In this document: piece after piece, positions 6,458 through 64,000 of the stretch | Numbering within the stretch: the stretch's first letter is position 1 | Layout of the letters: every line of letters begins with the position of its first letter | Source of the DNA: Arenicola marina | Lineage: Eukaryota > Annelida > Polychaeta > Arenicolidae | Direction of reading: 5' to 3' | DNA: 64,000 bases | Assembly: GCA_964019135.1 (NCBI GenBank) | Contig: OZ025255.1 | Span: 9,796,001 to 9,860,000, forward strand | The notes under the pieces: model-generated | Databases searched by the model: none | Told to the model about the DNA's origin: nothing | Seen by the model: the letters and a program-made list of their open reading frames with translations, nothing else | Translations under genes and position numbers: made by a program

Positions 6458-6835
6458 GGGGAAGGAAGGGGCAACCGTATTTATATACCACTTACTTTCA
6501 CACAGTCTCTCTTCGGCCCCCCAAGCATCTTGCCTACTGCGTGTCCCCCATCTAAAGGTGCCGGTAGCGCTTTACGCGTCAGTGGGGAAGGATTTTAGTT
6601 TTGGGGCTATGCTGGACTTGCAACCCGTGGATGTGATACGGGTTTAGGAGGGTGTAACCGGGGCTGTCCCTCCCTCCCTCCCTCCCTCCCTGCCTGGCCA
6701 CCGACCGCACTGACCGGGGCTGTCCCTACCTCCCTGCCTCCCTCCCTGCCTGGCCACCGGCCGCCCTGACAGGGGCTGTCCCTACCTCCCTGCCTCCCTC
6801 CCTACCTGGCCACCGACCGCCCTGACCGGGGCTGT

Positions 6836-8407
6836 CCCTCCCTCCCTCCCTCCCAGCCTGGCCACCGGCCTGACAGGGGCTGTCCCTGCCTCCCTGCCTC
6901 CCTCCCTGCCTGGCCACCGGCCGCCTTGACCGGGGCTGTCCCTCCCTCCCTCCCTCCCTCCCTGCCTGGCCACCGGCCGCCCTGACCGGGGCTGTCCCTA
7001 CCTCCCTCCCTCCCTCCCTGCCTGGCCACCGGCCTGACAGGGGCTGTCCCTACCTCCCTCCCTCCCTCCCTGCCTGGCCACCGGCCGCCCTGACCGGGGC
7101 TGTCCCTTCCTACCTCCCTCCCTGCCTGGCCACCGGCCTCCCTGACTGTGGCTGTCCCTACCTCCCTCCCTGCCTGGCCACCGGCCTCCCTGACCGTGGC
7201 TGTCCCTATCTCCCTCCCTCCCTCCAGGCCTGGCCACCGACCGCCCTGACCGGGGCTGTCCCTCCCTCCCTCCCTCCCTCCCTGCCTGGCCACCGGCCAC
7301 CCTGACCGGGGCTGTCCCTACCTCCCTACCTCCCTCCCTGCCTAGCCACCGGCCTGACAGGGGCTGTCCCTACCTCCCGGCCTCCCTCCCTGCCTGGCCA
7401 CCGGCCTGACAGAGGCTGTCCCTACCTCCCTGCCTCCCTCCCTGCCTGGCCACCGCCCGCCCTGACCGGGGCTGTCCCTACCTCCCTCCCTCCCTCCCTG
7501 CCTGGCCACCGGCCTGACAGGGGCTGTCCCTACCTCCCGGCCTCCCTCCCTACCTGGCCACCGACCGCCCTGACCTTGGCTGTCCCTACCTCCCTGCCTC
7601 CCTCCCTGCCTGGCCACCGGCCGCCCTGACCTTGGCTGTCCCTACCTCCCTGCCTCCCTCCCTGCCTGGCCACCGGCCGCCCTGACCGGGGCTGTCCCTC
7701 CCTACCTCCCTCCCTGCCTGGCCACCGGCCGCCCTGACAGGGGCTGTCCCTATCTCCCTCCCTCCCTCCCTGCCTGGCCACCGCCCTGACAGGGGCTGTC
7801 CCTACCTCCCTGCCTCCCTCCCTGCCTGGCCACCGACCGCCCTGACCGGGGCTGTGCCTACCTCCCTGCCTCCCTCCCTACCTGGCCACCGGCCGCCCTG
7901 ACCGGGGCTGTGCTAACCTCCCTGCCTCCCTCCCTACCTGGCCACCGGCGGCCCTGACCGGGGCTGTCCCTACCTCCCTGCCTCCCTCCCTACCTGGCCA
8001 CCGGCGGCCCTGACAGGGGCTGTCCCTACCTCCCTGCCTCCCTCCCTACCTGGCCACCGCCCGCCCTGACAGGGGCTGTGCCTACCTTCCTGCCTCCCTC
8101 CCTACCTGGCCACCGGCGGCCCTGACAGGGGCTGTGCCTACCTCCCTGCCTCCCTCCCTACCTGGCCACCGGCCGCCCTGACAGGGGCTGTCCCTACCTC
8201 CCTGCCTCCCTCCCTACCTGGCCACCGCCCGCCCTGACCGGGGCTGTCCCTACCTCCCTCCCTCCCTCCCTGCCTGGCCATTGCCCGCCCTGACAGGGGC
8301 TGTCCCTACCTCCCTCCCTCCCTTCCTCCCTGGCCACCGCCCTGACAGGGGCTGTCCCTACCTCCCTGCCTCCCTCCCTGCCTGGCCACCGGCCTGACCG
8401 GGGCTGT
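6836..8407. repeat. 1572 bp higher-order block, copy 1
   Basis: The order of unit variants here is repeated 1572 bp downstream. For example tcccagcctg occurs at 6851 and 8423, and the cctagccacc variant recurs at the same offset. I noticed one difference (a C to T inside a gcctgg motif near 7279/8851). Confidence 0.85.
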
Positions 8408-9979
8408 CCCTCCCTCCCTCCCTCCCAGCCTGGCCACCGGCCTGACAGGGGCTGTCCCTGCCTCCCTGCCTCCCTCCCTGCCTGGCCACCGGCCGCCTTG
8501 ACCGGGGCTGTCCCTCCCTCCCTCCCTCCCTCCCTGCCTGGCCACCGGCCGCCCTGACCGGGGCTGTCCCTACCTCCCTCCCTCCCTCCCTGCCTGGCCA
8601 CCGGCCTGACAGGGGCTGTCCCTACCTCCCTCCCTCCCTCCCTGCCTGGCCACCGGCCGCCCTGACCGGGGCTGTCCCTTCCTACCTCCCTCCCTGCCTG
8701 GCCACCGGCCTCCCTGACTGTGGCTGTCCCTACCTCCCTCCCTGCCTGGCCACCGGCCTCCCTGACCGTGGCTGTCCCTATCTCCCTCCCTCCCTCCAGG
8801 CCTGGCCACCGACCGCCCTGACCGGGGCTGTCCCTCCCTCCCTCCCTCCCTCCTTGCCTGGCCACCGGCCACCCTGACCGGGGCTGTCCCTACCTCCCTA
8901 CCTCCCTCCCTGCCTAGCCACCGGCCTGACAGGGGCTGTCCCTACCTCCCGGCCTCCCTCCCTGCCTGGCCACCGGCCTGACAGAGGCTGTCCCTACCTC
9001 CCTGCCTCCCTCCCTGCCTGGCCACCGCCCGCCCTGACCGGGGCTGTCCCTACCTCCCTCCCTCCCTCCCTGCCTGGCCACCGGCCTGACAGGGGCTGTC
9101 CCTACCTCCCGGCCTCCCTCCCTACCTGGCCACCGACCGCCCTGACCTTGGCTGTCCCTACCTCCCTGCCTCCCTCCCTGCCTGGCCACCGGCCGCCCTG
9201 ACCTTGGCTGTCCCTACCTCCCTGCCTCCCTCCCTGCCTGGCCACCGGCCGCCCTGACCGGGGCTGTCCCTCCCTACCTCCCTCCCTGCCTGGCCACCGG
9301 CCGCCCTGACAGGGGCTGTCCCTATCTCCCTCCCTCCCTCCCTGCCTGGCCACCGCCCTGACAGGGGCTGTCCCTACCTCCCTGCCTCCCTCCCTGCCTG
9401 GCCACCGACCGCCCTGACCGGGGCTGTGCCTACCTCCCTGCCTCCCTCCCTACCTGGCCACCGGCCGCCCTGACCGGGGCTGTGCTAACCTCCCTGCCTC
9501 CCTCCCTACCTGGCCACCGGCGGCCCTGACCGGGGCTGTCCCTACCTCCCTGCCTCCCTCCCTACCTGGCCACCGGCGGCCCTGACAGGGGCTGTCCCTA
9601 CCTCCCTGCCTCCCTCCCTACCTGGCCACCGCCCGCCCTGACAGGGGCTGTGCCTACCTTCCTGCCTCCCTCCCTACCTGGCCACCGGCGGCCCTGACAG
9701 GGGCTGTGCCTACCTCCCTGCCTCCCTCCCTACCTGGCCACCGGCCGCCCTGACAGGGGCTGTCCCTACCTCCCTGCCTCCCTCCCTACCTGGCCACCGC
9801 CCGCCCTGACCGGGGCTGTCCCTACCTCCCTCCCTCCCTCCCTGCCTGGCCATTGCCCGCCCTGACAGGGGCTGTCCCTACCTCCCTCCCTCCCTTCCTC
9901 CCTGGCCACCGCCCTGACAGGGGCTGTCCCTACCTCCCTGCCTCCCTCCCTGCCTGGCCACCGGCCTGACCGGGGCTGT
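8408..9979. repeat. 1572 bp higher-order block, copy 2
   Basis: Near-identical tandem copy of the preceding block. Similarity ends near 9980, where the next unit reads cccttcctcgct. This is either a recent expansion or an assembly duplication. Confidence 0.85.
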
Positions 9980-10919
9980 CCCTTCCTCGCTCCCTCCCTC
10001 CCTGCCTGGCCACCGACCACCCTGACCGGGGCTGTCCCTCCCTACCTCCCTCCCTGCCTGGCCACCGACCGCCCTGACCGGGGCTGTCCCTCCCTGCCTC
10101 CCTGCCTGGCCACCGACCGCCCTGACCGGGGCTATCCCGCCCTCACTCCCTCCCTGCCTGGCCACCGACCGCCCTGACCCGGGGCTGTTCCTACCTCCCT
10201 CCCTGCCTGGCCACCGGCCTGACAGGGGCTGTCCCTACCTCCCTGCCTCCCTCCCTGCCTGGCCACCGGCCGCCCTGACAGGGGCTGTCCCTACCTCCCT
10301 ACCTCCCTCCCTACCTGGCCACCGGCCTGACAGGGGCTGTCCCTCCCTCCCTCCCTCCCTCAATCACTCCCTGCCTGGCCACCGGCCTGACCGGGGCTGT
10401 CCCTACCTCCCTCCCTCTCTCCCTGCCTGGCCACCGGCCGCCCTGACCGGGGCTGTCCCTACCTCCCTGCCTCCCTCCCTGCCTGGTCACCGACCGCCCT
10501 GACCGGGGCTGTCCCTACCTCCCTCCCTCCCTCCCTGCCTGGCCACCGGCCGCCCTGACCGGGGCTGTCCCTACCTCCTTCCCTCCCTCTCTGCCTGGCC
10601 ACCGGCCGCCCTGACCGGGGCTGTCCCTACCTCCCTGCCTCCCTTCCTACCTGGCCACCGGCCGCCCTGACCGGGGCTGTCCCTCCCTCCCTCCCTCCCT
10701 GCCTGGACACCGGCCTCCCTGACAGGGGCTGTCCCTACCTCCCTGCCTCCCTCCCTGCCTGGCCACCGGCCTCCCTGACCGGGGCTGTCCCTCCCTCCCT
10801 CCCTCCCCCCCTGCCTGGCCACCGACCGCCCTGACCGGGGCTGTCCCTCCCTCCCTCCATCCCCCCCTGCCTGGCCATCGGCCACCCTGACCGGGGCTGT
10901 CCCTCCCTCCCTCCCTCCC

Positions 10920-12290
10920 CCCCCTGCCTGGCCACCGACCGCCCTGACCGGGGCTGTCCCTCCTTCCCTCCCTCCCTCCCTGCCTGGCCACCGACCGCCC
11001 TGACCGAGGCTGTCCCTCCCTCCCTCCTTCCCTGCCAGGCCACCGCCCGCCCTGACCGGGGCTGTCCCTCCCTCCCTCCCTCCCTGCCTGGACACCGGCC
11101 TCCCTGACCGTGGCTGTCCCTACCTCCCTCCCTCCCACCCTACCTGGCCACCGGCCGCCCTAACCGGGGCTGTCCCTATCTCCCTCCCTCCTTGCCTGGC
11201 CACCGCCCGCCCTGACAGGCGCTGTCCCTACCTCCCTGTCTCCCTCCCTACCTGGCCACCGCCCTGACAGGGGCTGTCCCTACCTCCCTGCCTCCCTCCC
11301 TACCTGGCCACCGGCCGCCCTGACAGGGGCTGTCCCTACCTCCCTGCCTCCTCCCTACCTGGCCACCGGCCGCCTTGACAGGGGCTGTCCCTACCACCCT
11401 GCCTCCCTCCCTGCCTGGCCACCGCCCGCCCTGACCGGGGCTGTCCTTACCTCCCTCCCTGCCTAGCCACCGCCCGCCCTGACCGGGGCTGTCCCTCCCT
11501 CCCTACCTCCTTCCCTGCCTGGCCACCGACCGCCCTGACCGGGGCTGTCTCTCCCTCCCTCCCTGCCTGCCTGGCCACCGACCGCCCTGACCGGGGCTGT
11601 CCCTACCTCCCTCCCTGCCTGGCCACCGCCCGCCCTGACCGGAGCTGTCCCTCCCTCCCTACCTCCTTCCCTGCCTGGCCACCGACCGCCCTGACCGGGG
11701 CTGTCCCTCCCTCCCTCCCTCCCCCCCCTGCCTGGCCACCGACCGCCCTGACCGGGGCTGTCCCTCCCTCCCTCCCTCCCTCCCTGCCTGGCCACCGACC
11801 GCCCTGACCGAGGCTGTCCCTCCCTCCCTCCTTCCCTGCCAGGCCACCGCCCGCCCTGACCGTGGCTGTCCCTCCCTCCCTCCCTCCCTGCCTGGACACC
11901 GGCCTCCCTGACCGGGGCTGTCCCTACCTCCCTCCCTCCCTCCCTACCTGGTCACCGGCCGCCATAACCGGGGCTGTCCCTACCTCCCTCCCTCCCTGCC
12001 TGGCCACCGCCCGCCCTGACAGGGGCTGTCCCTACCTCCCTGTCTCCCTCCCTACCTGGCCACCGCCCTGACAGGGGCTGTCCCTACCTCCCTGCCTCCC
12101 TCCCTACCTGGCCACCGGCCGCCCTGACAGGGGCTGTCCCTACCTCCCTGCCTCCCTCCCTACCTGGCCACCGGCCGCCTTGACAGGGGCTGTCCCTACC
12201 ACCCTGCCTCCCTCCCTGCCTGGCCACCGCCCGCCCTGACCGGGGCTGTCCTTACCTCCCTCCCTGCCTGGCCACCGCCCGCCCTGACCG
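10920..12290. repeat. 804 bp higher-order duplication inside the CCCT minisatellite
   Basis: Rare variants recur 804 bp apart: gaccgaggct at 11002 and 11806, and ctccctgtct at 11232 and 12036. The two copies have several differences (for example gacaggcgct against gacaggggct), so this duplication is older than the 1572 bp one. Confidence 0.75.
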
Positions 12291-13894
12291 GGGCTGTCCC
12301 TCCCTCCCTACCTCCTTCCCTGCCTGGCCACCGACCGCCCTGACCGGGGCTGTCCCTACCTCCCTCCCTGCCTGGCCACCGACCGCCCTGACCGGGGCTG
12401 TCCCTCCCTCCCTACCTCCTTCCCTGCCTGGCCACCGACCGCCCTGAACGGGGCTGTCCCTACCTCCCTCCCTGCCTGGCCACCGACCGCCCTGACCGGG
12501 GCTGTCTCTCCCTCCCTCCCTGCCTGCCTGGCCACCGACCGCCCTGACCGGGGCTGTCCCTACCTCCCTCCCTACCTGGCCACCGCCCTGACCGGGGCTG
12601 TCCCTACCTCCCGGCCTCCCTCCCTACCTGGCCACCGCCCTGACCGGGGCTGTCCCTACCTCCCGGCCTCCCTCCCTACCTGGCCACCGCCCTGACAGGG
12701 GCTGTCCCTACCTCCCTGCCTCCCTCCCTACCTGGCCACCGGCCGCCCTGACCGGGGCTGTCCCTACCTCCCTCCCTCCCTCCCTACCTGGCCACCGACC
12801 GCCCTGACCGGGGCTGTCCCTACCTCCCTGCCTCCCTCCCTACCTGGCCACCGACCACCCTGACCGGGGCTGTCCCTCCCTCACTCCCTCCCTGCCTGGC
12901 CACCGACCGCCCTGACCGGGGCTGTCCCTACCTCCCTGCCTCCCTCCCTACCTGGCCACCGGCCGCCCTGACCGGGGCTGTCCCTACCTCCTTGCCTCCC
13001 TGCCTGGCCACCGACCGCCCTGACCGGGGCTGTCCCTACCTCCCTGCCTCCCTCCCTGCCTGGCCACCGACCACCCTGACCGGGGCTGTCCCTCCCTCCC
13101 TCCCTACCTGGCCACCGGCCGCCCTGACCGGGGCTGTCCCTCCCTCGCTCCCGCCCTCCCTGCCTGGCCACCGACCACCCTGACCGGGGCTGTCCCTCCC
13201 TACCTCCCTCCCTGCCTGGCCACCGACCGCCCTGACCGGGGCTATCCCTCCCTCCCTCCCTCCCTCCCTGCCTTGCCACCGACCGCGCTGACCGCGTCTG
13301 TCCCTCCCTCCCTCCCTCCCTCCCTGCCTGGCCACTGACCGCCCTGACCGGGGCTGTCCCTCCCTCCCTCCCTCCCTCCCTGCCTGGCCACCGGCCGCCC
13401 TGACCGGGGCTCTTCCTTCCTCCCTCCCTCCCTGCCTGGCCACCGACCGCCCTGACCGGGGCTGTCCCTCCCTCCCTCCCTCCCTGCCTGGCCACCGACC
13501 GCCCTGACCGGGGCTGTCCCTCCCTCCCTCCCTGCCTGGCCACCGGCCGCCCTAACCGGGGCTGTCCCTCCCTCCCTCCCTCCCCCCCCCCTGCCTGGCC
13601 ACCGACCGCCCTGACCGGGGCTGTCCCTCCCTCCCTCCCTCCCCCCCTGCTTGGCCACCGACCGCCCTGACCGGGGCTTTTTTAGTCGTCTTCTTTCAAT
13701 AAATGCGATGAACAGCGAACTATTGTGCGGGTGTGAAGTGCACTAGGTGAGGAGGGACATCGCCTGATCCCCCCGCATGCCCTCTGTGTCTCTGTCAGGA
13801 CGGCTGGGTGCAGTATTTACACCAAGGACGAGAAAAAAGAATATTGATGACACCAGGTGCTGAGCTTCTCGGTGAGGGGGGAGGGGGGTAGCGA

Positions 13895-20497: not shown

Positions 20498-20748
20498 CCA
20501 GCATGAACTCAAGTCCAGCATGAACTCAAGTCCAGCATGAATTCAAGTCCAGCATGAACTCAAGTCCAGCATGAACTCAAGTCCAGCATGAACTCAAGTC
20601 CAGCATGAACTCAAGTCCAGCATGAACTCAAATCCAGCATGAACTCAAATCCAGCATGAACTCAAGTCCAGCATGAACTCACTTCCAGCATGAACTCAAG
20701 TCCAGCATGAACTCAAGTGTAGCATAAACTCAAGTTCAACATGAACCA
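20498..20748. repeat. 17 bp minisatellite flanking the GPCR, about 14 units
   Basis: Units of gtccagcatgaactcaa. The inverted GPCR copy has the same repeat at its outer end (22275-22320) with only two to three units. Confidence 0.95.
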
Positions 20749-20787
20749 CGTTTATGGCATTTGATAAGCTACTAGAAGTCATCATGC

Positions 20788-21735
20788 TTAGACAGACAGT
20801 GACGTCGATTGGGAATATTGTTGGGCAGATCCTGTTGGTGGGAGCGGTGACCGTGCACATGGCACCGCGACCGTTCTGCGGAGTGGCTTCCGGAAAGTTT
20901 TGTTGCCGTAAATGAGCACTAGGGGCGTCACAGCGGCGTTGATGGAGTTGACCGCTAGGGCGAGTGCCGACACACTGGGCGCGAGTTCGGTGGAGATTGA
21001 GTCCCTCCAGACCGCCGGCAAGAAGGGTGACAAGAAGGACAGAAACAAGGTCAAGGTCATGATCACCAATGTTCGGAAGGTCACGAGTTTCGCCGAGCTC
21101 TGTGGGACTCCCTGGTGCACGTTTCTCCCGATGTTCGGGATCACGCCATTGAAGGCGTTGCTTTGCGCCCTATTTCGGATGATCCGAATCCAGATGAGAA
21201 AGTGACACAGGAAGTTGACGAAGAAGGTTAAGACCGAAGCGCCCAAGTACAAAAAGAAATACAATTAATGGAAGTTATAACTATTGAGGATGCTGTACGT
21301 GCAAAGGGTTAACAACTTCTGCGGCGGCATCGCCGTCAAGGACACGAGGAGAAAGGATAGCGCGAAAACGGCTGCGACCAAGACGTGTGAGCATCTGGCA
21401 GACATCGGTTGCCATCGCCATGACATCGCAGCCCGACAGCGCAGGACGGAAATGACGCACAGACCGTTGAGGGTGACGTAGTTGGCGATGTTGCGCGTGG
21501 CTTTCTTGATGAGACACCACGCCGGTGGCGACTCTGGGAAGTTCTGAATAAGATCGCTCAGTTCCATGGACTGGACAATGTAACAGATGCAGATCTGAGC
21601 AACCGTAAGGCACATGACCAGTCTGTTGACGGGCGTCCGTAAATGGCGCTGCTTCACGAAGATGAAGAAAATGAGCAGATTGCTGAGTCCCCCAACCATG
21701 ACTAATATACAGATTGTGCAAGAGAGGATATCCAT
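20788..21735 (-). pseudogene. Class A rhodopsin-like GPCR with one in-frame stop
   Basis: A single-exon seven-transmembrane receptor of about 315 codons. It shows N19 in GLSN (TM1), TM2 with CLTVAQ, Cys74 at the top of TM3, LRC near residues 98-100 in place of DRY, Cys145 in the second extracellular loop, a TM6 ending in SPFLPAVW, and TM7 with NSINAAVTP, so TPLVLIY stands in place of NPxxY. The frame is broken only by TAA at 21262-21264 between loop 2 and TM5; the inverted copy has TCA (Ser) at that position. The DRY and NPxxY departures recall divergent lineage-specific invertebrate receptors. The ligand is unknown. It may be a recent pseudogene, a polymorphic null allele or a sequencing error. 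Confidence 0.85.
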
Positions 21736-21746
21736 GAAACCTACGT

Positions 21747-22325
21747 CATTTCCGTCCTGCGCTGTCGGGCTGCGATGTCATGGCGATGGCAATCGATGTC
21801 TGCCAGATGCTCACACGTCTTGGTCGCAGCCGTTTACGCGCTTTCCTTTCTCCTCGTGTCCTTGACGGCGATGCCGCCACAGAAATTGTTAACCCTTTGC
21901 ACGTACAGTATCCTCAAAGGTTATAAGTTCCATTCATTTTATTTATTTTTAGACTCGGGCGCTTCGGTCTTAACCTTCTTCGTCAACTTCCTGTGTCACT
22001 TTCTCTTCTGGATTCGGATCAATCTCCACCGAACTCGCGCCCAGTGTGTCGGCACTCGCCCTAGCGGTCAACTCCATCAACGCCGCTGTGACGCCCCTAG
22101 TGATCATTTACGGCAACAAAACTTTCCGGAAGCAACTCCGCAGAATGATCGCGGTGCCATGTGCACGGTCACCGCTCCCACCAACAGGATCTGCCCATCA
22201 ATATTCCCAATCGACGTCACTGTCTGTCTAAGCATGAAGACTTATAGCAGCTTATCAAATGCCATAAACGTGGTTCATGTTGGACTTGAGTTCATGCTGG
22301 ACTTGAGTTCATGCTGGACTGGTCT
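21747..22325 (+). pseudogene. Truncated inverted copy of the GPCR
   Basis: It starts abruptly at the codons for VISVLRCRAAM (end of TM3), so TM1-TM3 are absent. It runs through TM4-TM5, then lacks 182 bp relative to the first copy (cytoplasmic loop 3 and TM6). The deletion junction shares a TCA microhomology and shifts the frame. TM7 and the C-terminus (NSINAAVTPLVIIYG to the stop at 22231) continue in another frame. The 3' flank and a few 17 bp minisatellite units are also copied. It cannot make a receptor. Confidence 0.9.
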
Positions 22326-22904
22326 GCGTGCATTAATGACTTCAATAAATGAAAGATGTAAAAGGATTATCATGTGAAAATTGCTGTATGAGCAGCTTTT
22401 AATTAATTAATGTCACAATGGACATTCTGGATTCGCACGCCAGGGTGGAGAGACACAGTGTGGAGTTCCATGTGCGTAACACGATCGTTAACTATTATTG
22501 TCAGTTAACTATGTCGATTTACGCAAAAGGCGATTTATGGCTGCATAACTTTCAACCGTTTATCATAAGGTAACAGACTGTTTTCGCAAAACAAAACCTC
22601 ATTTTGTACAGATAGATATCTTAACTCTCAAACGATACAATTTTTAGATTGAGATAGATGCACATAAGCCGAGAGAACAGCTGATATAAATGCCACGCGG
22701 CGAATGTAAAGATTGTCACTACGCTATGTGGAACAGGAAAACGGTCACATTCCCGTTTTGCCTATGTTATTCAGTGGGAATATAAATAAGGATCTTTCTG
22801 GTATCTATTTTGTTTAGAGATATTTGCACTCTAATTCATGAATATATATTGTACTGTATATATGTATTGTTGCGTAGCGACAAGGCATGCCGAACGGCGT
22901 TGAT
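22326..22904. other. Intergenic, no gene recognised
   Basis: Unique AT-rich sequence. I see no coding exon or repeat beyond short AT runs. Confidence 0.5.
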
Positions 22905-39196: not shown

Positions 39197-39337
39197 TCAG
39201 ACGTCCGGGTGAGACGAGGGTAGAGAGCCCAGTCGTCTCTGGGCCCCGCGGGGGTCTCGTGCCCGCCGGTGTTGTTCCGTTGAGGCTTGCACGGCCATCC
39301 GATGAGCTATGAGGCTTGGTAAAGCATCTAATTGAGT
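39197..39337 (-). CDS. KCNN: SK channel, last coding exon (C-terminus and stop)
   Basis: Acceptor ttactcgtttcag precedes a phase-0 exon of 47 codons including TGA at 39197-39199. It begins TQLDALPSLIAHRMAVQ, matching the IHALPGLISQTI stretch that ends the coiled coil in KCNN channels. It continues with a short basic and Ser/Pro tail ending SSHPDV. The tail is shorter than the Ser/Arg-rich end of the vertebrate proteins. It joins in frame to the exon at 39761-39862. Confidence 0.9.
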   Translation of the reverse strand, partial: TQLDALPSLIAHRMAVQASTEQHRRARDPRGAQRRLGSLPSSHPDV

Positions 39338-39760: not shown

Positions 39761-39862
39761 CTGGAGGTGCCTGAGACTATCCTCAATACTGTCCACTCGT
39801 TGCTCCACGGCTAACTGACGTGTGTTCATCTCCATAACCAACTCAAACATATTGGTCTGGGT
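39761..39862 (-). CDS. KCNN: SK channel, coiled-coil exon
   Basis: Exactly 34 codons, phase 0 at both ends, between acceptor gattttacccag and donor GTAACG. It encodes TQTNMFELVMEMNTRQ, then a heptad-like stretch (VEQRVDSIEDSLRHLQ), corresponding to [23 protein letters not shown] in vertebrate KCNN2. This segment assembles as a coiled coil after the calmodulin-binding domain. The acceptor has a tandem acccagacccag, so a NAGNAG-like choice could remove TQ. Confidence 0.92.
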
Positions 39863-43454: not shown

Positions 43455-43524
43455 CTTAGCCATGTCCACTAAAGTGTTTGCATTGTCGTTGAGTTTGCGC
43501 TGGTCCATCTTCACCTTCCGCAAA
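43455..43524 (-). CDS. KCNN: SK channel, calmodulin-binding domain exon 2
   Basis: A 70 nt exon: one base completes a split codon, then 23 codons read LRKVKMDQRKLNDNANTLV followed by DMAK, up to a GTAGGT donor. The vertebrate equivalent is [20 protein letters not shown]. This is the second helix of the constitutive calmodulin-binding domain through which Ca2+ gates the channel. The Lys/Arg pattern is retained. The acceptor is ctgctacag. Confidence 0.95.
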
Positions 43525-43992: not shown

Positions 43993-44120
43993 CTGTGAAT
44001 TGCCTGAAGAAACTTGCGCTGGTGCGCCCGCACTTTGCTAGCGTTAACCTTTTTAACCAATCGCGTGTACTTATAGATGAGCCATGTTTCCCGGAGTACG
44101 TTGGCCGCCGCGTTTTTTAA
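43993..44120 (-). CDS. KCNN: SK channel, calmodulin-binding domain exon 1
   Basis: A 128 nt exon, phase 0 at its start and ending in two bases (AG) of a split codon before GTAAG. It encodes [20 protein letters not shown], then a stretch ending [14 protein letters not shown], matching the first helix of the KCNN calmodulin-binding domain. Conserved RETWLIYK and [10 protein letters not shown] identify the family without doubt. The split codon reads Ser where vertebrates have Gln. Confidence 0.96.
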
Positions 44121-44422: not shown

Positions 44423-44533
44423 CCGCTTTGTGAGTTGTGTATCCATCATGAAGTTATGAACGTGTTTTTCGGCCCTGCTGAGTTCCAGCTTCCGTGCGAG
44501 CACTGCTACCACTAGAGCGGTACAGCCCGCCCC
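44423..44533 (-). CDS. KCNN: SK channel, S6 and proximal C-terminus exon
   Basis: Exactly 37 codons, phase 0 at both ends. It runs from [18 protein letters not shown] (S6, the pore-lining inner helix) to [17 protein letters not shown], then a GTAAGT donor. Both halves are nearly identical to KCNN channels of flies and vertebrates. It must accept either pore exon, and both join to it in frame at the GVM/GAGC boundary. The acceptor is tctccctccgattcgctag. Confidence 0.96.
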
Positions 44534-46554: not shown

Positions 46555-49330
46555 GATGTGTGTATGTCAAATAGCAAGAAGAGCACGCAACAGTCATTGA
46601 GAGCTTGGGGTAGCAAGAAGAACATATATCTGTCATTGAGAGCTTGGGGTAGCAAGAAGCACATATATCAGTCATTGAGAGCTTGGGGTAGCCATAAGAA
46701 CATATATCAGTCATTGGGAGCTTGAGTATGGCAAGTAGTGAAGAGAGCGTGTATCTATCATTGAGAACTAGGGTATGTCAATTAATGAGGGCAACATGTA
46801 TCTGTCATTGAGAAAAGCATGTATCTTTCATTGAGAGCTTGGGTATGACAAAAATTAAGGAGAGCATGTATCTTTCATTGAGAGCTTGGGTATGACAAGT
46901 ACTAAGGAGAGCATGTATCTGTCATTGAGAGCTTGAGTATGACAAGTACTAAGGAAAGCATGTATCTTTCATTGAAAGCTTAGGTATGACAAGTACTAAG
47001 GAGAGCATGTATCTGTCATTGAGAGCTTGAGTATGACAAGTACTAAGGAAAGCATGTATCTGTCATTGAGAGCTTGGGTATGACAACTAATAAGGAAAGC
47101 ATGTATCTTTCATTGAAAGCTTAGGTATGACAAGTATTAAGGAGAGCACGTATCTGTCATTGAGAGCTTGGGTATGACAAGTAATAAGGAGAGCATGCAT
47201 CTGCTGTTGAGATCTTGAGCATGACAAGTGTTAAGGAGAGGACGTATCTTTCATTGAAAGCTTGGGTATGACAAGTATTTAGGAGAGCATGTATCTGTCA
47301 TTGAGAAAAGCATGTATCTTTCATTGAGAGCTTGGGTATGACAAAAATTAAGGAGAGCATGTATCTTTCATTGAGAGCTTGGGTATGACAAGTACTAAGG
47401 AAAGCATGTATCTTTCATTGAGAGCTTGGGTATGACAAGTACTAAGGAGAGCATGTATCTGTCATTGAGAGCTTGAGTATGACAAGTACTAAGGAAAGCA
47501 TGTATCTTTCATTGAAAGCCTAGGTATGACAAATATTAAGGAGAGCATGTATCTGTCATTGAGAGCTTGAGTATGACAAGTACTAAGGAAAGCATGTATC
47601 TTTCATTGAGAGCTTGGGCATGACAAGTACTAAGGAGAGCATGTATCTCTCATTGAGAGCTTGGGTATGACAATTACTAAGGAAAGCATGTATCTTTCAT
47701 TGAGAGCTTGGGCATGACAAGTACTAAGGAGAGCATGTATCTGTCATTGAGAGCTTGGGTATGGCAAGTACTAAGGAAAGCATGTATCTTTCATTGAAAG
47801 CTTAGGTATGACAAATATTAAGGAGAGCATGTATCTGTCATTGAGAGCTTGAGTATGACAAGTACTAAGGAAAGCACGTATCTTTCATTGAGAGCTTGGG
47901 CATGACAAGTACTAAGGAGAGCATGTATCTGTCATTGAGAGCTTGGGTATGACAAGTACTAAGGAAAGCATGTATCTTTCATTGAGAGCTTGGGCATGAC
48001 ACGTACTAAGGAGAGCATGTATCTGTCATTGAGAGCTTGAGTATGACAAGTACTAAGGAAAGCATGTATCTTTCATTGAAAGCTTAGGTATGACAAATAT
48101 TAAGGAGAGCATGTATCTGTCATTGAGAGCTTGAGTATGACAAGTACTAAGGAAAGCATGTATCTTTCATTGAGAGCTTGGGCATGACAAGTACTAAGGA
48201 GAGCATGTATCTGTCATTGAGAGCTTGGGTATGACAAGTACTAAGGAAAGCATGTATCTTTCATTGAGAGCTTGGGCATGACACGTACTAAGGAGAGCAT
48301 GTATCTGTCATTGAGAGCTTGGGTATGACAAGTACTAAGGAAAGCATGTATCTTTCATTGAAAGCTTAGGTATGACAAATATTAAGGAGAGCACGTATCT
48401 GTCATTGAGAGCTTGGGTATGACAAGTAATAAGGAGAGCATGCATCTGCTATTGAGATCTTGAGCATGACAAGTGTTAAGGAGAGGACGTATCTTTCATT
48501 GAAAGCTTGGGTATGGCAAGTATTTAGGAGAGCATGTAACTGTCATTGAGAGCTTGAGTATGACAAGTATCAACAAGAGCATGCATCTGTCATTGAGAGC
48601 TTGAGCATAACAAGTACTAAGGAAAGTACGTATCTTTCATTGAGAGCTTCGATATGACAAGTACTAAGGAGAGCATGTGTCTTTCAGAGAGCTTGGGTAT
48701 GACAAGTATTAAGGAGAGCATGTATTCTTCATTGAAAGCTTGAGTATGACAAGTATTAAGGAGAGCATTTATCTTTCATTGAGAGCTTGGGTATAACAAG
48801 TACTAAGGAAAGCATTATCTTTCATTGAGAGCTTGGGTATGGCAAGTATTAAGGAGAGCATGTATCTGTCAGAGCTTGGGTATAACAATTACTAAGGAAA
48901 GCTTGTATCTTTCATTGAGAGCTTGGGTATGACAACTATTAAGGAGAGCATGTATGTTTCATTGAGAGTTTGGGTATAACAAGTACGAAGGAAAGCATGT
49001 ATCTTTCATTGAGAGCTTGGGCATGACAAGTACTAAGGAGAGCATGTATCTGTCATTGAGAGCTTGGGTATGACAAGTACTAAGGAAAGCATGTATCTTT
49101 CATTGAAAGCTTAGGTATGACAAATATTAAGGAGAGCATGTATCTGTCATTGAGAGCTTGAGTATGACAAGTACTAAGGAAAGCATGTATCGGTCATTGA
49201 GAGCTTGGGTATGACAACTATAAGGAGAGCATGTATCTGTCATTGAGAGCTTGGATATAGCAAGTAGCAATGAGAGCATGTATCTGCTATCGAGATCTTG
49301 AGTATGGCAAGTGGCGAGAAGAGCATGTAT
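46555..49330. repeat. 47 bp minisatellite in an SK intron, about 58 units
   Basis: Units with cores gagcatgtatctgtcattga and gagcttgggtatgacaagta. Two alternating forms (tctgtcattgagag and tctttcattgaaag) give a dimeric 94 bp period over much of the array, and longer blocks also repeat (the gaggacgtatc and tgcatctgc variants at 47205-47240 recur at 48440-48490). Confidence 0.93.
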
Positions 49331-50590
49331 CTGTCATTCAAAACTTGGGTCTGAGAAGTTGCAACGTCAGGGTGTGATATTGGAGATATGGATACAAATA
49401 AACAAAGAGCAATGCGTCCTTGATTGTTGAGACTCCGCAATTTGTTATTGAAGATGGTGTGACATGGTTTTTTATGCCATTTTAACACTGGTGTGACAGG
49501 TTACTGAGCAAAACGAACACTGTTGTAATAGGTTGGGTATTAGAACACTGGTGCCACAGGGTGATGGGCAAAAGGAACATCGTAGTCGCAGGTTAGTGGG
49601 CAAAAAGAACACTGTTGTAATAGTTTGGGCTTGTAGAAGACGTTATTGAGCACGTAGAGCATTGCTGTAAAAGGATAATAGTCATTGACAAAGAGAACAC
49701 TGTTGTCACAGGTTAATTGGCAAATAGAAGACTGTTGTGACAGGATATTGAACATGTATAAAATTCCATGTGTAATTTGCATATGGATAGTGCGGTGTGG
49801 TCAGGTAAAAGACCCAATCCAAGACGGTGGATAACAATGGAGACAGTTATATCGCTGGCACAGATGAAGTACATATGCACCGATACAATATGATATAATT
49901 GAGGACAAGTCACAGGGTACGGATGGAGTCTCACAGAGAACAATGCATTCGAGTAGTGATACATAGATATGTGCGATATGTGAATCCAATTGTCTCGAAG
50001 ACTTGAATTATAAAGAACAAAACGATTCGAAACACCGAAAAAAAAACACAAGGACATCTTGATTCCAAGGAATCATGCGCCGGGGACCAAAGGGACTGCG
50101 ATCACCATGTAGAATTATCTTTGAAAATGGGATACAAGTTGAGGGTAAATTGTTGGATTGATCAAAGAAGATTATTTGCCGCAAACTCTGCACAAAAATG
50201 TCATATTTGGATATCTCTGTCTTTGTTAGTTTTTTTGTCCATGCTACCACATATTGCGTTAGTAGCTGATATGATATCGGCGTTTCAATTTGGCATTGGC
50301 CTTGAAAGCTCATTCTGTTATGACACTTAATCTACGGTATAGCTTCATGCTCCAGGATAACTGGTTGTCAGTCAATCTAAATGTAGTGGATTAGGAAAGC
50401 TGAAAGCATTTAAATTGAATGCTGAAGGTATTAATATAAAATAGCCGCAAACACTAAGATACATTTTCCGATTGAATATGCCGACACTACGGGAACACAT
50501 CGTAAGACTAACAATCACACACGCACCCAAACAGACACAATAAGAAACAGGCACCGCAATTAGTCAGTATACAGCGCAATATAATAATAA
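49331..50590. other. Intronic sequence between two minisatellites
   Basis: 49480-49760 has a loose repeat built on acactgttgt and aggttaatgggcaaa. The rest is unique. No coding exon recognised. Confidence 0.5.
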
Positions 50591-50599
50591 ATCATATAT

Positions 50600-51470
50600 T
50601 ATATATATAGCTGTAAATACATATCTTAAGATGTATGATATAGATGCATGACATGAGATGTAGGATATAAGATGTATGACATGATATGTAAGATATAAGA
50701 TGTATGACATACAATGTATGATATAAGATGTATGATATGGGATGCATGACATACAATGTATGATATAAGATGTATGATATGGGATGCATGAAATACAATG
50801 TATAATATAAGATGCATGATATAAGATGAAGGATATACAATGTATGATATAAGATGTATGATGTGGGATGCATGACATACAATGTATGATATAAGATGAA
50901 GGACATACGATGTATGATATAAGATGTATGATATGGGATGCATGAAATACAATGTATAATATAAGATGTATGATATAAGATGAAGGATATACAATGTATG
51001 ATATAAGATGTATGATATGGGATGCATGACATACAATGTATGATATAAGATGAAGGACATACGATGTATGATATAAGATGTATGATATGGGATGCATGAA
51101 ATACAATGTATAATATAAGATGTATGATATAAGATGAAGGATATACAATGTATGATATGGGATGCATGACATACAATGTATGATATAAGATGAAGGACAT
51201 ACGATGTATGATATAAGATGTATGATATGGGATGCATGAAATACAATGTATAATATAAGATGTATGATATAAGATGAAGGATATACAATGTATGATATAA
51301 GATGTATGATATGGGATGCATGATATAAGATGTATGATATAAGATGAAGGACATACGATGTATGATATAAGATGTTTGATATAAGATGAAGGACATACAA
51401 TGTATGATATTCGATGCATAATATCCGATGTAGAATATAACATTTGTGTTATGAGATGTATGACATGGAA
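50600..51470. repeat. 13-14 bp AT-rich minisatellite with about 150 bp higher-order units
   Basis: Basic motif gatgtatgatataa. A block containing aaatacaatgtataatataa recurs at about 50789, 50945, 51097 and 51239. Three minus frames of 256-283 codons (SYIVCPSSYIIH type) stay open only because TA-rich units lack stops in that register. Confidence 0.93.
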
Positions 51471-51489
51471 TGTATAATATAAAATATCT

Positions 51490-52430
51490 GATATATGATA
51501 TCAGATGTATGATATCAGATGTATGACATAAAGATGTATGATATCAGATGTAAGACATAAAGATGTATGATATCAGATGTATGACATAAAGATCTATGAT
51601 ATCAGATGTATGACATAAAGATGTATGATATCAGATGTATGACATAAAGATGTATGATATCAGATGTATGACATAAAAATGTATGATATCAGATTATGAC
51701 ATAAAGATGTATGATATCAGATGTAAGACATAAAGATGTATGATATCAGATGTATGACATAAAGATGTATGATATCAGATATATGACATAAAGATGTATG
51801 ATATCAGATGTATGACATAAAGATGTATGATATCAGATATATGACATAAAGATGTATGATATCAGATGTATGACATAAAGAAGTATGATATCAGATGTAA
51901 GACATAAAATGTATGATATCAGATGTATGACATAAAGATCTATGATATCAGATGTATGACATAAAGATGTATGATATCAGATGTATGACATAAAGATGTA
52001 TGATATCAGATGTATGACATAAAGATGTATGATATCAGATGTAAGACATAAAGATGTATGATATCAGATATATGACATAAAGATGTATGATATCAGATGT
52101 ATGACATAAAGATCTATGATATCAGATGTATGACATAAAGATGTATGATATCAGATGTATGACATAAAGATGTATGATATCAGATGTATGACATAAAGAT
52201 GTATGATATCAGATGTATGACATAAAGATGTATGATATCAGATGTATGACATAAAGATGTATATCAGATGTATGACATAAAGATGTATGATATCAGATGT
52301 ATGACATAAAGATCTATGATATCAGATGTATGACATAAAGATGTATGATATCAGATGTAAGACATAAAGATGTATGATATCAGATGTATGACATAAAGAT
52401 GTATGATATGACATGTACGCTATGAGCAGT
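51490..52430. repeat. 29 bp minisatellite in an SK intron, about 32 units
   Basis: Units with core gatatcagatgtatgacata followed by aagatgtat. Very homogeneous, with single-base variants (gatctat, gtaagac). Confidence 0.95.
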
Positions 52431-52569
52431 AGGGTCTAAATGTATGCATAAGATGTATGGTCTAAAATGCATGTATAAGATGTATGGTCTAAAATGTATA
52501 ATATAAGTTGTATGATATAAAATGTATGAGATAAGATGCACGATGTATATCTTCTATATATATTACATC

Positions 52570-52960: not shown

Positions 52961-53096
52961 CATGACGCCGGTAGACACCGCAAGACTTCTGCCGCAGTAT
53001 GTGTTTGGTGTAATATCCCCATAGCCAATAGCCAGGAACGTTATTGAGACCAGCCACATAGAATTAAGCAAATTCCTATGCCTTTCGTCGTGGTAA
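52961..53096 (-). CDS. KCNN: SK channel, alternative pore exon B (3' copy)
   Basis: A 136 nt exon between acceptor tgtccgtttgtttcag and donor GTAAGTACATG. After one base of a split codon it encodes 45 residues: YHDERHRNLLNSMWLVSI, the pore helix and filter TFLAIGYGD, then ITPNTYCGRSLAVSTGVM. It differs from exon A at four residues: Val for Ile in the pore helix, Ala for Ser just before the IGYGD filter, and Ser-Leu for Gly-Ile after CGR. Ten of 15 base differences are silent, which argues that both copies are under selection as coding sequence. It is the more divergent copy, since other animals have GRG or GKG. Confidence 0.93.
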
Positions 53097-53127
53097 CTGA
53101 AACAAACGGACATGAAGAAAGACTTAC

Positions 53128-53263
53128 CATAACACCAGTGGAGACTGCTATACCCCTGCCGCAGTATGTGTTTGGTGTAATATCCCCATAGCCAATAGAC
53201 AGGAAGGTAATTGAGATCAGCCACATAGAATTAAGCAAATTCCTATGCCTTTCGTCATGGTAA
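53128..53263 (-). CDS. KCNN: SK channel, alternative pore exon A (5' copy)
   Basis: A 136 nt exon with the same phase as exon B, between acceptor tgtccgtttgtttcag and donor GTAAGTCTTTC. It encodes YHDERHRNLLNSMWLISI, TFLSIGYGD, then ITPNTYCGRGIAVSTGVM. This is the pore helix, K+ selectivity filter (GYGD) and outer vestibule of an SK channel. The residues match the usual KCNN form (SITFLSIGYGD), so this is the canonical copy. The upstream exon ends GAGAG, giving Glu-Ser before YHD, where vertebrates have Glu-Arg. Confidence 0.95.
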
Positions 53264-57531: not shown

Positions 57532-57947
57532 CTCTCGCATGCCCTGAGCGTCCAACTGGCAATGATCCAGAGGGACAGCATGAAGACCAGCAGCACGGTT
57601 CCGGGACAGATAGTCATGAGCGTCTTTAAGACAAAGCGCGTGTTGAAGTTGATGCGGTTGAGCGCCCCGATGCTGCGCGAGGAGGCGTCCGTGAAGAGCT
57701 TGCTGTGGAGCAGCATCACTCGGCAGATGAGATAGAGGCGGAGGAACATTGGGAGCGAGAGGAGCAGGTCGATGGGCACCACGGCCGTGTGGGGGTTCCC
57801 GTCGGCCTTCACCGTCGTCCAGACGAAGGAGAAGCTGCCCGGGATCGGGTGGACGGCGCAGACACACAGCTCCACGGTGATCTGGATCACCCGCTGCCAT
57901 GACATGGCTATCCGCCAGTCCTCCACGCAGTTGTCGATGGCGAAGAG
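57532..57947 (-). CDS. KCNN: SK channel, S3 to S5 exon
   Basis: A 416 nt exon between acceptor tttcttctcgctgcag and donor GTAAG. It encodes 138 residues plus two bases. It starts [16 protein letters not shown]3 spans residues 17-34 (ending CAVHPIPG), S4 about 58-80 ([17 protein letters not shown], few positive charges as in SK channels), the S4-S5 linker has [17 protein letters not shown], and S5 spans 111-133 ([11 protein letters not shown]). The S4-S5 linker is nearly identical to vertebrate KCNN and is where calmodulin acts on the gate. The exon start corresponds to a known boundary after the S2 region (EIQ/LF). The preceding S1-S2 exon was not found up to 61141 or in 61342-64000. Confidence 0.96.
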
Positions 57948-61341: not shown

Positions 61342-61631
61342 CAAATTCGCTTCACGGTTGCATCGCGAGGAGCGGAAAAGAAGAAGAGAAAATGAGAGAG
61401 GAGGAAGGGGTGTGTGTGTTGGTGAGTGTGTGTTTGTATGCAGGGTGCATTACGCCGTTTGTGTACTGCGCGAGAACGTTTTAATTGAGGCAGAGAGAAA
61501 AAAGGGGAAAGTAGCACGTCCCGCAGTAGACAGATGGGGAGTTGTAGCCAAACAGTGTTTAGTTCACATTCCAGGCCACAGGAAATTTTGATCTTTTAAT
61601 TCTTCATTCGTCAGTAAAAACGAAAAAAAAA

Positions 61632-64000
61632 TGCGCCTGTCCATCGTCTCACGGACTGCCCGCCTGCTCATCGTCTCACGGACTGCCCGCCTGCCCATCG
61701 TCTCACGGACTGCCCGCCTGCTCATCGTCTCACGGACTGCCCGCCTGTCCATCGTCTCACGGACTGCCCGCCTGCTCATCGTCTCACGGACTGCCCGCCT
61801 GCCCATCGTCTCACGGACTGCCCGCCTGCTCATCGTCTCACGGACTGCCCGCCTGCCCATCGTCTCACGGACTGCCCGCCTGCTCATCGTCTCACGGACT
61901 GCCCGCCTGCTCATCGTCTCACGGACTGCCCGCCTGCCCATCGTCTCACGGACTGCCCGCCTGCTCATCGTCTCACGGACTGCCCGCCTGCTCATCGTCT
62001 CACGGACTGCCCGCCTGCCCATCGTCTCACGGACTGCCCGCCTGTCCATCGCCTCACGGACTGCCCGCCTGCCCATCGTCTCACGGACTGCCCGCCTGCC
62101 CATCGTCTCACGGACTGCCCGCCTGCCCATCGTCTCACGGACTGCCCGCCTGCCCATCGTCTCACGGACTGCCCGCCTGCCCATCGTCTCACGGACTGCC
62201 CGCCTGTCCATCGTCTCACGGACTGCCCGCCTGCCCATCGTCTCACGGACTGCCCGCCTGCCCATCGTCTCACGGACTGCCCGCCTGCCCATCGTCTCAC
62301 GGACTGCCCGCATGCCCATCGTCTCACGGACTGCCCGCTTGCCCATCGTCTCACGGACTGCCCGCCTGCCCATCGTCTCACGGACTGCCCGCCTGCCCAT
62401 CGTCTCACGGACTGCCCGCCTGCCCATCGTCTCACGGACTGCCCGCCTGCCCATCGTCTCACGGACTGCCCGCCTGTCCATCGTCTCACGGACTGCCCGC
62501 CTGCCCATCGTCTCACGGACTGCCCGCCTGTCCATCGTCTCACGGACAGCCCGCCTGCCCATCGTCTCACGGACTGCCCGCCTGCCCATCGTCTCACGGA
62601 CTGCCCGCCTGCCCATCGTCTCACGGACTGCCCGCCTGCCCTTCGTCTCACGAACTACCCGCCTGCCCATCGCCTCACGGACTGCCCGCCTGCCCATCGT
62701 CTCACGGACTGCCCGCCTGCCCATCGTCTCACGGACTGCCCGCCTCTCCATCGTCTCACGGACTGCCCGCCTCTCCAACGTCTCACGGACTGCTCGCCTG
62801 CCCATCGTCTCACGGACTGCCCGCATGCCCATCGTCTCACGGACTGCCCGCCTGCCCATCGTCTCACGGACTGCCCGCCTGCTCATCGTCTCACGGACTG
62901 CCCGCCTGCCCATCGTCTCACGGACTGCCCGCATCCCCATCGTCTCACGGACTGCCTGCCTGTCTATCGTCTCACGGACTGCCCGCTTGCCCATTGTCTC
63001 ACGGACTGCCCGCCTGCCCATCGTCTCACGGACTACCCATCGTCTCACTGCCCGCCTGCCCATCGTCTCACGGACTGCCCGCCTGCCCTTCGTCTCACGG
63101 ACTACCCGCCTGCCCATCGCCTCACGGACTGCCCGCCTGCCCATCGTCTCACGGACTGCCCGCCTGCCCATCGTCTCACGGACTGCCCGCCTCTCCATCG
63201 TCTCACGGACTGCCCGCCTCTCCATCGTCTCACGGACTGCTCGCCTGCCCATCGTCTCACGGACTGCCCGCATGCCCATCGTCTCACGGACTGCCCGCCT
63301 GCCCATCGTCTCACGGACTGCCCGCCTGCTCATCGTCTCACGGACTGCCCGCCTGCCCATCGTCTCACGGACTGCCCGCCTGCCCATCGTCTCACGGACT
63401 GCCCGCCTGCCCATCGTCTCACGGACTGCCCGCATCCCCATCGTCTCACGGACTGCCTGCCTGTCCATCGTCTCACGGACTGCCCGCTTGCCCATTGTCT
63501 CACGGACTGCCCGCCTGCCCATCGTCTCACGGACTGCCCGCATGCCCATCGTCTCACGGACTGCCCGCCTGCCCATCGTCTCACGGACTGCCCATCGTCT
63601 CACTGCCCGCCTGCCCATCGTGTCACGGACTACCCATCGTCTCACGGACTGCCCGCCTGCCCATCGTCTCACGGACTACCCATCGTCTCACGGACTGCCC
63701 GCCTGCCCATCGTCTCACGGACTGCCCGCCTGCCCATCGTCTCACGGACTGCCCGCATGCCCATCGTCTCACGGACTGCCTGCCTGTCCATCGACTCACG
63801 GACTGCCCGCCTGCCCATCGTCTCACGGACTGTCCGCATGCCCATCGTCTCACGGACTGCCCGCCTGCCCATCGTCTCACGGACTGCCCACCTGCCCATC
63901 GTCTCACGGACTGCCCATCGTCTCACGGACTGCCCGCCTGCCCATCGTCTCACGGACTACCCATCGTCTCACTGCCCGCCTGCCCATCGTCTCACGGACT
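61632..64000. repeat. 27 bp minisatellite, about 87 units, runs off the window
   Basis: Units with core cccatcgtctcacggactgc followed by ccgcctg. Because 27 is a multiple of three, the minus strand keeps a 702-codon frame with a nonapeptide MGRRAVRET. Larger blocks recur 447 bp apart (for example the acctctccatcg group at 62741 and 63188). Truncated units such as gactacccatcgtctcactg disturb the register near 63030, 63590 and 63960. I regard it as non-coding. Confidence 0.93.

Follow-up and report, generated by a model that had tools for sequence, protein, structure and literature searches.

Two pore exons in tandem within one SK gene

Can a single SK (KCNN) channel gene supply two channels that differ in their pores? 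The question is raised by the minus strand of the 64,000-nt stretch of DNA analyzed here (the window), in which we followed an SK gene from the S3 region to the stop codon. The part of the gene in the window has eight exons, of which any one productive mRNA takes seven. Its features, in the order of transcription, are as follows (percentages are tblastn identities to the Capitella teleta SK protein P0002):

57532..57947, minus strand: S3-S5 exon, 416 nt (P0002 residues 125-265, 86%, E 4.7e-72; splice sites read)
53128..53263, minus strand: pore exon A, 136 nt, with the canonical filter SIGYGD (Pfam Ion_trans_2, 56.1 bits in the spliced isoform)
53097..53127, minus strand: spacer from A to B, 31 nt, with the A donor gtaagt, a yTnAy branch-point candidate, a pyrimidine tract, and the B acceptor
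52961..53096, minus strand: pore exon B, 136 nt, with the filter AIGYGD (Pfam Ion_trans_2, 56.6 bits in the spliced isoform)
44423..44533, minus strand: S6 exon, 111 nt, phase 0 (85%, E 1.2e-15)
43993..44120, minus strand: calmodulin-binding domain exon 1, 128 nt (90%, E 2.1e-18; domain at 121 bits when spliced)
43455..43524, minus strand: calmodulin-binding domain exon 2, 70 nt (90%, E 1.5e-9)
39761..39862, minus strand: C-terminal exon, 102 nt, which we take to encode a coiled coil (61%, E 6e-9)
39197..39337, minus strand: last coding exon with the stop codon, 141 nt (45%, E 4.9e-5)

Each of the six non-pore exons is matched once by P0002 (tblastn, E < 0.001), and the single pore of that protein is matched by both A and B. 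The spliced protein covers the full calmodulin-binding domain profile (PF02888, positions 1-75; 121.3 bits for isoform A and 121.2 bits for isoform B). It also matches the profile of a two-transmembrane potassium pore (PF07885), with a GYGD filter in both isoforms, and among PDB entries, SK2 chains resemble it most in sequence. The SK-type S1-S3 profile (PF03530) is covered at positions 77-117 of 118, with 54 bits, which is above the cut-off. Searches of the window with six SK proteins as queries (tblastn, E up to 1) found neither an S1-S2 exon nor a third pore copy, and a search of the same 64,000 nt found no second S6 exon. Either the 5′ part of the gene, which would include S1-S2, is beyond the window, or the searches failed to detect it. 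Large minisatellite arrays occupy 46572-49359 and 50627-52538, in the intron that separates pore exon B from the S6 exon; the array at 47309-49359 has about 44 copies of a 47-bp unit, and the second has an AT-rich 14/29-bp unit.

An earlier note on this DNA had proposed two 136-nt minus-strand pore segments that join in frame to the same neighboring exons. Its positions are confirmed (A, 53263..53128; B, 53096..52961), and so are the splice sites, which are intact in both copies; in each case the acceptor is the pyrimidine-rich tttgtttcag and the donor is gtaagt. The S3-S5 exon ends in phase 2 (...TGC GAG AG|gtaagt), and either copy fits in frame between that exon (57947..57532) and the S6 exon (44533..44423). 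The join to the S3-S5 exon reads as an open frame, ...ACES-YHDE..., with A and B alike, in agreement with the Capitella protein (CESYHD). In the joined frame, the translations are YHDERHRNLLNSMWLISITFLSIGYGDITPNTYCGRGIAVSTGVM (A) and YHDERHRNLLNSMWLVSITFLAIGYGDITPNTYCGRSLAVSTGVM (B). The two exons have equal length and the same phase, and 121 of their 136 bases are identical (89%), a likeness far beyond chance.

When A and B are included together, or when neither is included, the frame is shifted and an early stop follows. With a 31-nt spacer and this loss of frame, the anatomy is that of mutually exclusive exons. The claim of one SK gene with two alternative pore exons is thus backed by an arrangement in which the two appear not to be usable together. 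A length of 31 nt is below the usual sizes of animal introns; some eukaryotes have very short introns, and the steric argument is therefore not proof. A scan for the branch-point motif yTnAy covered the 91 nt upstream of B, made up of the spacer and the final 60 nt of A, and gave a single match, which lies 17 nt before B, with the donor of A about 14 nt away. The motif is a weak guide, as upstream of A the single match within 80 nt is 76 nt away. In a survey of human exclusive exons, a distance from donor to branch point of less than 50 bp is taken as a sign of steric interference (PMC5740500). The candidate distance of about 14 nt falls below that criterion, and exclusion of A-to-B splicing would therefore fit.

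Divergence and constraint between the two exons

A and B differ at 15 of the 136 sites, with 11 synonymous and 4 nonsynonymous differences in a tally made by hand that splits the two-step change in codon 38 (10 and 5 before the split). The dN/dS ratio is about 0.08, and the 4 nonsynonymous differences of 15 compare with about 77% expected without constraint (P = 5e-5 for 4 or fewer). A and B are real duplicates under constraint. From A to B, the amino acid differences are I16V, presumably in the pore helix, S22A, and G37S and I38L, which we take to lie at the start of S6.

The earlier note had also allowed for an assembly duplication. The 15 differing sites, 11 of them synonymous and 4 nonsynonymous, imply that this is not one exon assembled twice. 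An artefact of this kind, in which unmerged haplotypes or misjoined reads would make one exon appear twice, has nothing specific in its favor other than a short tandem unit (167 nt). It would have to account for differences that are mostly synonymous and near saturation at the 3′ end, for flanks that differ, and for a 31-nt spacer that holds both a donor and an acceptor, and we regard it as extremely improbable.

The differences are unevenly spread. Ten of the 15 fall within the last 28 nt (scan P = 0.0013), and two tracts, 43 and 39 nt long, show no difference, so that codons 3-15 and 23-35 do not differ at all. Codons 37-45 are near saturation, with 6 synonymous codon changes over 7.5 synonymous sites. 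We read this pattern as an old duplication whose copies were probably homogenized in part by gene conversion; selection acting on the RNA sequence could also account for it.

To place the four replacements within the family, we used a homologue set made up of the best 120 of 1757 matches, 34 of 34, and the best 120 of 538, which together gave 218 different proteins with 236 pore copies; comparisons over 45 residues used 235 copies (one end-cut copy was left out). At all four differing positions, A carries the commonest residue of the family (235 copies, among the matches listed), which leads us to place the changes on B. All four residues of B nevertheless occur in the family, with V in 13, A in 4, S in 7, and L in 1 of the 235 copies among the matches listed. 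Were nonsynonymous changes random, one third would be to residues seen in the family (P about 0.012 for four of four). For B alone, 4 nonsynonymous changes of an assumed 9-10 give P = 0.035-0.013, if an even split of the synonymous changes is assumed. By itself, B thus shows a moderate degree of constraint.

These data also bear on the possibility that A is constitutive and B an unused duplicate, its likeness to A kept by gene conversion. Such a history would fit the pairing of a commonest residue in A with a rare one in B at every differing site (among the matches listed), the clustering of differences beside long identical tracts, which is what gene conversion leaves, and the occurrence of AIGYGD in no identified annelid protein among the matches listed. 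It is harder to reconcile with an exon B that has no stop or frameshift and has kept its splice sites, with the low dN/dS and the presence of B's four residues elsewhere in the family, and with a profile score for B that is not below that of A. On balance, we consider an unused exon B unlikely.

A serine-to-alanine exchange beside the selectivity filter

One of the four replacements affects the residue that precedes IGYGD, which is Ser in A (SIGYGD) and Ala in B (AIGYGD); this is the most telling of the four, and the earlier note had not singled it out. The filter Ser (S22) aligns with residue 358 of a human SK2 chain. What is probably the same residue carries the same substitution in S359A, a laboratory mutant of rat SK2 whose original study is reportedly that of Soh and Park in 2002. 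The mutant was engineered in one channel, whereas the exchange in the window lies in an alternative exon and comes with three other changes. In the numbering used in PMC12484442, the next residue is I359. The alignment suggests that S22 corresponds to rat SK2 S359 and that exon B is the equivalent of S359A.

According to a review, which reports the experiments second-hand, internal Mg2+ produces the inward rectification of SK2, and divalent ions block the S359A mutant less readily; the Mg2+ affinity of the mutant goes up at lower positive voltages (PMC12733198). PMC12484442 states that altering the SK filter Ser leads to higher K+ conductance at positive potentials and that SIGYG is absent from other mammalian K+ channels. 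The tandem exons thus differ at a residue that is reported to set divalent block (PMC12733198).

Across the 236 pore copies among the matches listed, the residue before the filter is Ser in 201, Cys in 27, Ala in 4, and Thr in 4; Ser is thus typical of SK channels without defining them. AIGYGD is found in 3 of the 218 homologues (P0125, P0126, and P0216) and AVGYGD in one more (P0130), among the matches listed. The former three have a single pore copy and form one clade (support 99/95); P0130 is on a long branch, and its placement is unsure. Since three SK proteins carry AIGYGD, such a pore is tolerated, and Ala may have become fixed at the filter-adjacent site in the lineage of P0125, P0126, and P0216. 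The records from Capitella, Dimorphilus, Helobdella, Owenia, and Paralvinella among the matches listed have one Ser copy each (5 of 5), an unannotated exon being invisible in protein records. Both window exons read GDIT, which occurs in none of the 236 copies among the matches listed.

Tandem pore copies in insect SK gene models

The earlier note had described KCNN channels as normally having one pore exon, with no alternative known. This was too broad, as we found tandem copies in 15 insect gene models. More than one pore copy is present in 16 of the 218 records among the matches listed, namely these 15 models and one bat model. The bat model repeats an identical stretch, which may be an annotation or assembly error. 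The insect models, with two or three tandem SK pore copies each, come from Spodoptera, Papilio, Colias, Danaus, Brenthis, and Choristoneura (Lepidoptera), and from Diaphorina, Timema, Gryllus, and Frankliniella (among the matches listed), genera that we take to represent five insect orders.

CVGYGD in the first copy is paired with SVGFGD in the last in 11 of the 15 models; the remaining 4 (Diaphorina and Frankliniella) begin with a SIGYGD copy and end with an SVGFGD copy, Ser being kept in both (all among the matches listed). The gene family and the tandem order are the same as in the window, and the exon span is similar at the protein level. The switch differs: it runs from CVGYG (SIGYG in Diaphorina and Frankliniella) to SVGFG in the insects and from SIGYG to AIGYG in the window. 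The insect models fuse the copies in one protein; on our reading, the fusions are probably mispredictions of exclusive exons. Single-copy records show similar alternatives. Two species of Bactrocera have SVGFGD (P0038, B. oleae isoform X8) and CVGYGD (P0070, B. tryoni isoform X9), and Cacopsylla melanoneura has SVGFGD in P0088 and P0114 versus SIGYGD in P0109.

Three tandem copies are found in P0003 (Timema) and P0141 (Gryllus, one of its two models). Their middle copies group together (97/86), which suggests an older third exon. Two lepidopteran models, P0001 and P0005, also have a tandem second S6 segment, GAGCTALLVAVVSRK... followed by GAGCTALLVTVASRK..., hinting at alternative S6 exons as well.

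The copies differ at the filter-adjacent site (Ser/Cys) in three of the five insect orders, and this matters for another explanation of the window pair, in which both exons are used, the two proteins are alike, and the second exon serves regulation through frameshifted mRNA that is decayed. The early stops that arise when both or neither of the exons are included are what such regulation would need. Against it, the change beside the filter falls on the residue reported to set divalent block (PMC12733198), and in those three insect orders the copies also differ there. We therefore judge a regulatory role by itself to be quite unlikely.

Descent of the window and insect pairs

In a tree of the channel core (35 rows, including 34 of the 218 homologues, chosen for spread of taxa), the window gene falls, weakly supported (83/70), in a group with Capitella, Owenia, Dimorphilus, Helobdella, and five further rows. 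The row closest to it is that of Capitella (86% identity), and the Paralvinella record belongs to a separate, divergent SK group. The gene is thus probably that of an annelid. The pore tree was built from 31 rows, with 22 homologues picked for taxon spread, over 45 columns, and its bootstrap had not settled. A and B pair with each other (99/89), and the insect upstream copies form a clade of their own (98/91); no grouping of A or B with one insect copy type was seen in this 45-column tree. Forcing B together with the insect upstream copies (p-AU = 0.037) or downstream copies (p-AU = 0.013) is rejected at 0.05, and forcing A together with the insect upstream copies is not (p-AU = 0.062).

From these groupings, the window pair looks to have arisen independently of the insect pair, which itself seems to predate the divergence of the sampled orders. 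Descent of both window copies from the insect pair is disfavored by the 45-column tree, but gene conversion could erase such a history. Two of the four variable positions are shared with those of the lepidopteran copies, and taking this as convergence would be over-reading (P = 0.25). The recurrence of changes at the filter-adjacent site is no more than suggestive; Diaphorina and Frankliniella leave that site unchanged. As a wider reading, some insects and the annelid-like animal of the window may have independently evolved alternative SK pore exons that swap the inner-filter residue and place inward rectification and block by internal divalents under splice control; we put this forward tentatively, as a possibility short of even odds.

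A model for the use of the two exons

We propose that A and B are mutually exclusive SK pore exons and that B is a natural equivalent of S359A, with less divalent block and less rectification; we give this reading a probability of roughly 0.7. With A spliced in, its donor would be joined to the acceptor of the S6 exon, which lies 8.6 kb downstream; with B in its place, the S3-S5 donor would skip A. Joining of A to B would be prevented by steric exclusion, with U1 competing against U2/U2AF, since the donor of A lies so close to the sole yTnAy match before B. Exon A would give the ordinary SIGYGD pore, and exon B an AIGYGD pore in which the inner end of the filter lacks a hydroxyl. Channels of B, or mixed A/B tetramers, would be blocked more weakly by internal Mg2+ and Ca2+ and would rectify less, passing more outward K+ current under depolarization. 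A choice of exon by cell type would then tune the after-hyperpolarization and leave calcium gating unchanged.

SK rectification is usually viewed as fixed and tied to one filter serine. If our reading is true, natural isoforms only four residues apart would allow a test of how filter chemistry relates to divalent block and after-hyperpolarization. Should insects hold a second and apparently separate case, the solution would be a recurrent one, and the question would be open to genetics in insect models.

Precedents

An isoform of hSK3 includes an additional exon, exon 4, in the loop between S5 and the pore. It likewise represents alternative splicing near an SK pore, but it is an insertion, whereas the window pair replaces the pore exon. 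Among the papers listed in searches of an open-licence library, none dealt with alternative SK pore exons. In the text available from PMC9741552, PMC5740500, and PMC6025963, the term KCNN had no match.

The sodium leak channel gene NALCN offers a published parallel: its exons 15a/15b and 31a/31b are tandem, mutually exclusive, and encode alternative selectivity filters in taxa that include annelids and molluscs (PMC3557258). As in the window, pore-loop exons in tandem are exclusive, and one filter residue is changed. NALCN belongs to another channel family, and its switch leads from a Ca2+-channel-like to a Na+-channel-like filter, whereas the window pair would tune a K+ filter. More generally, ion channels are enriched in tandem duplicated exons, as stated in PMC9741552, where Copley 2004 is cited for duplicated exons in a human and fly calcium-activated potassium channel, which may be Slo or SK.

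Other features of the window

Elsewhere in the window, positions 20688-22331 hold a near-palindromic inverted duplication with arms of 313 nt (95% identity) and 278 nt (94%). Within it, open reading frames contain fragments that resemble a rhodopsin-type receptor. Long minisatellites, with repetitive open frames on both strands, occupy 6700-13700 and 61600-64000.
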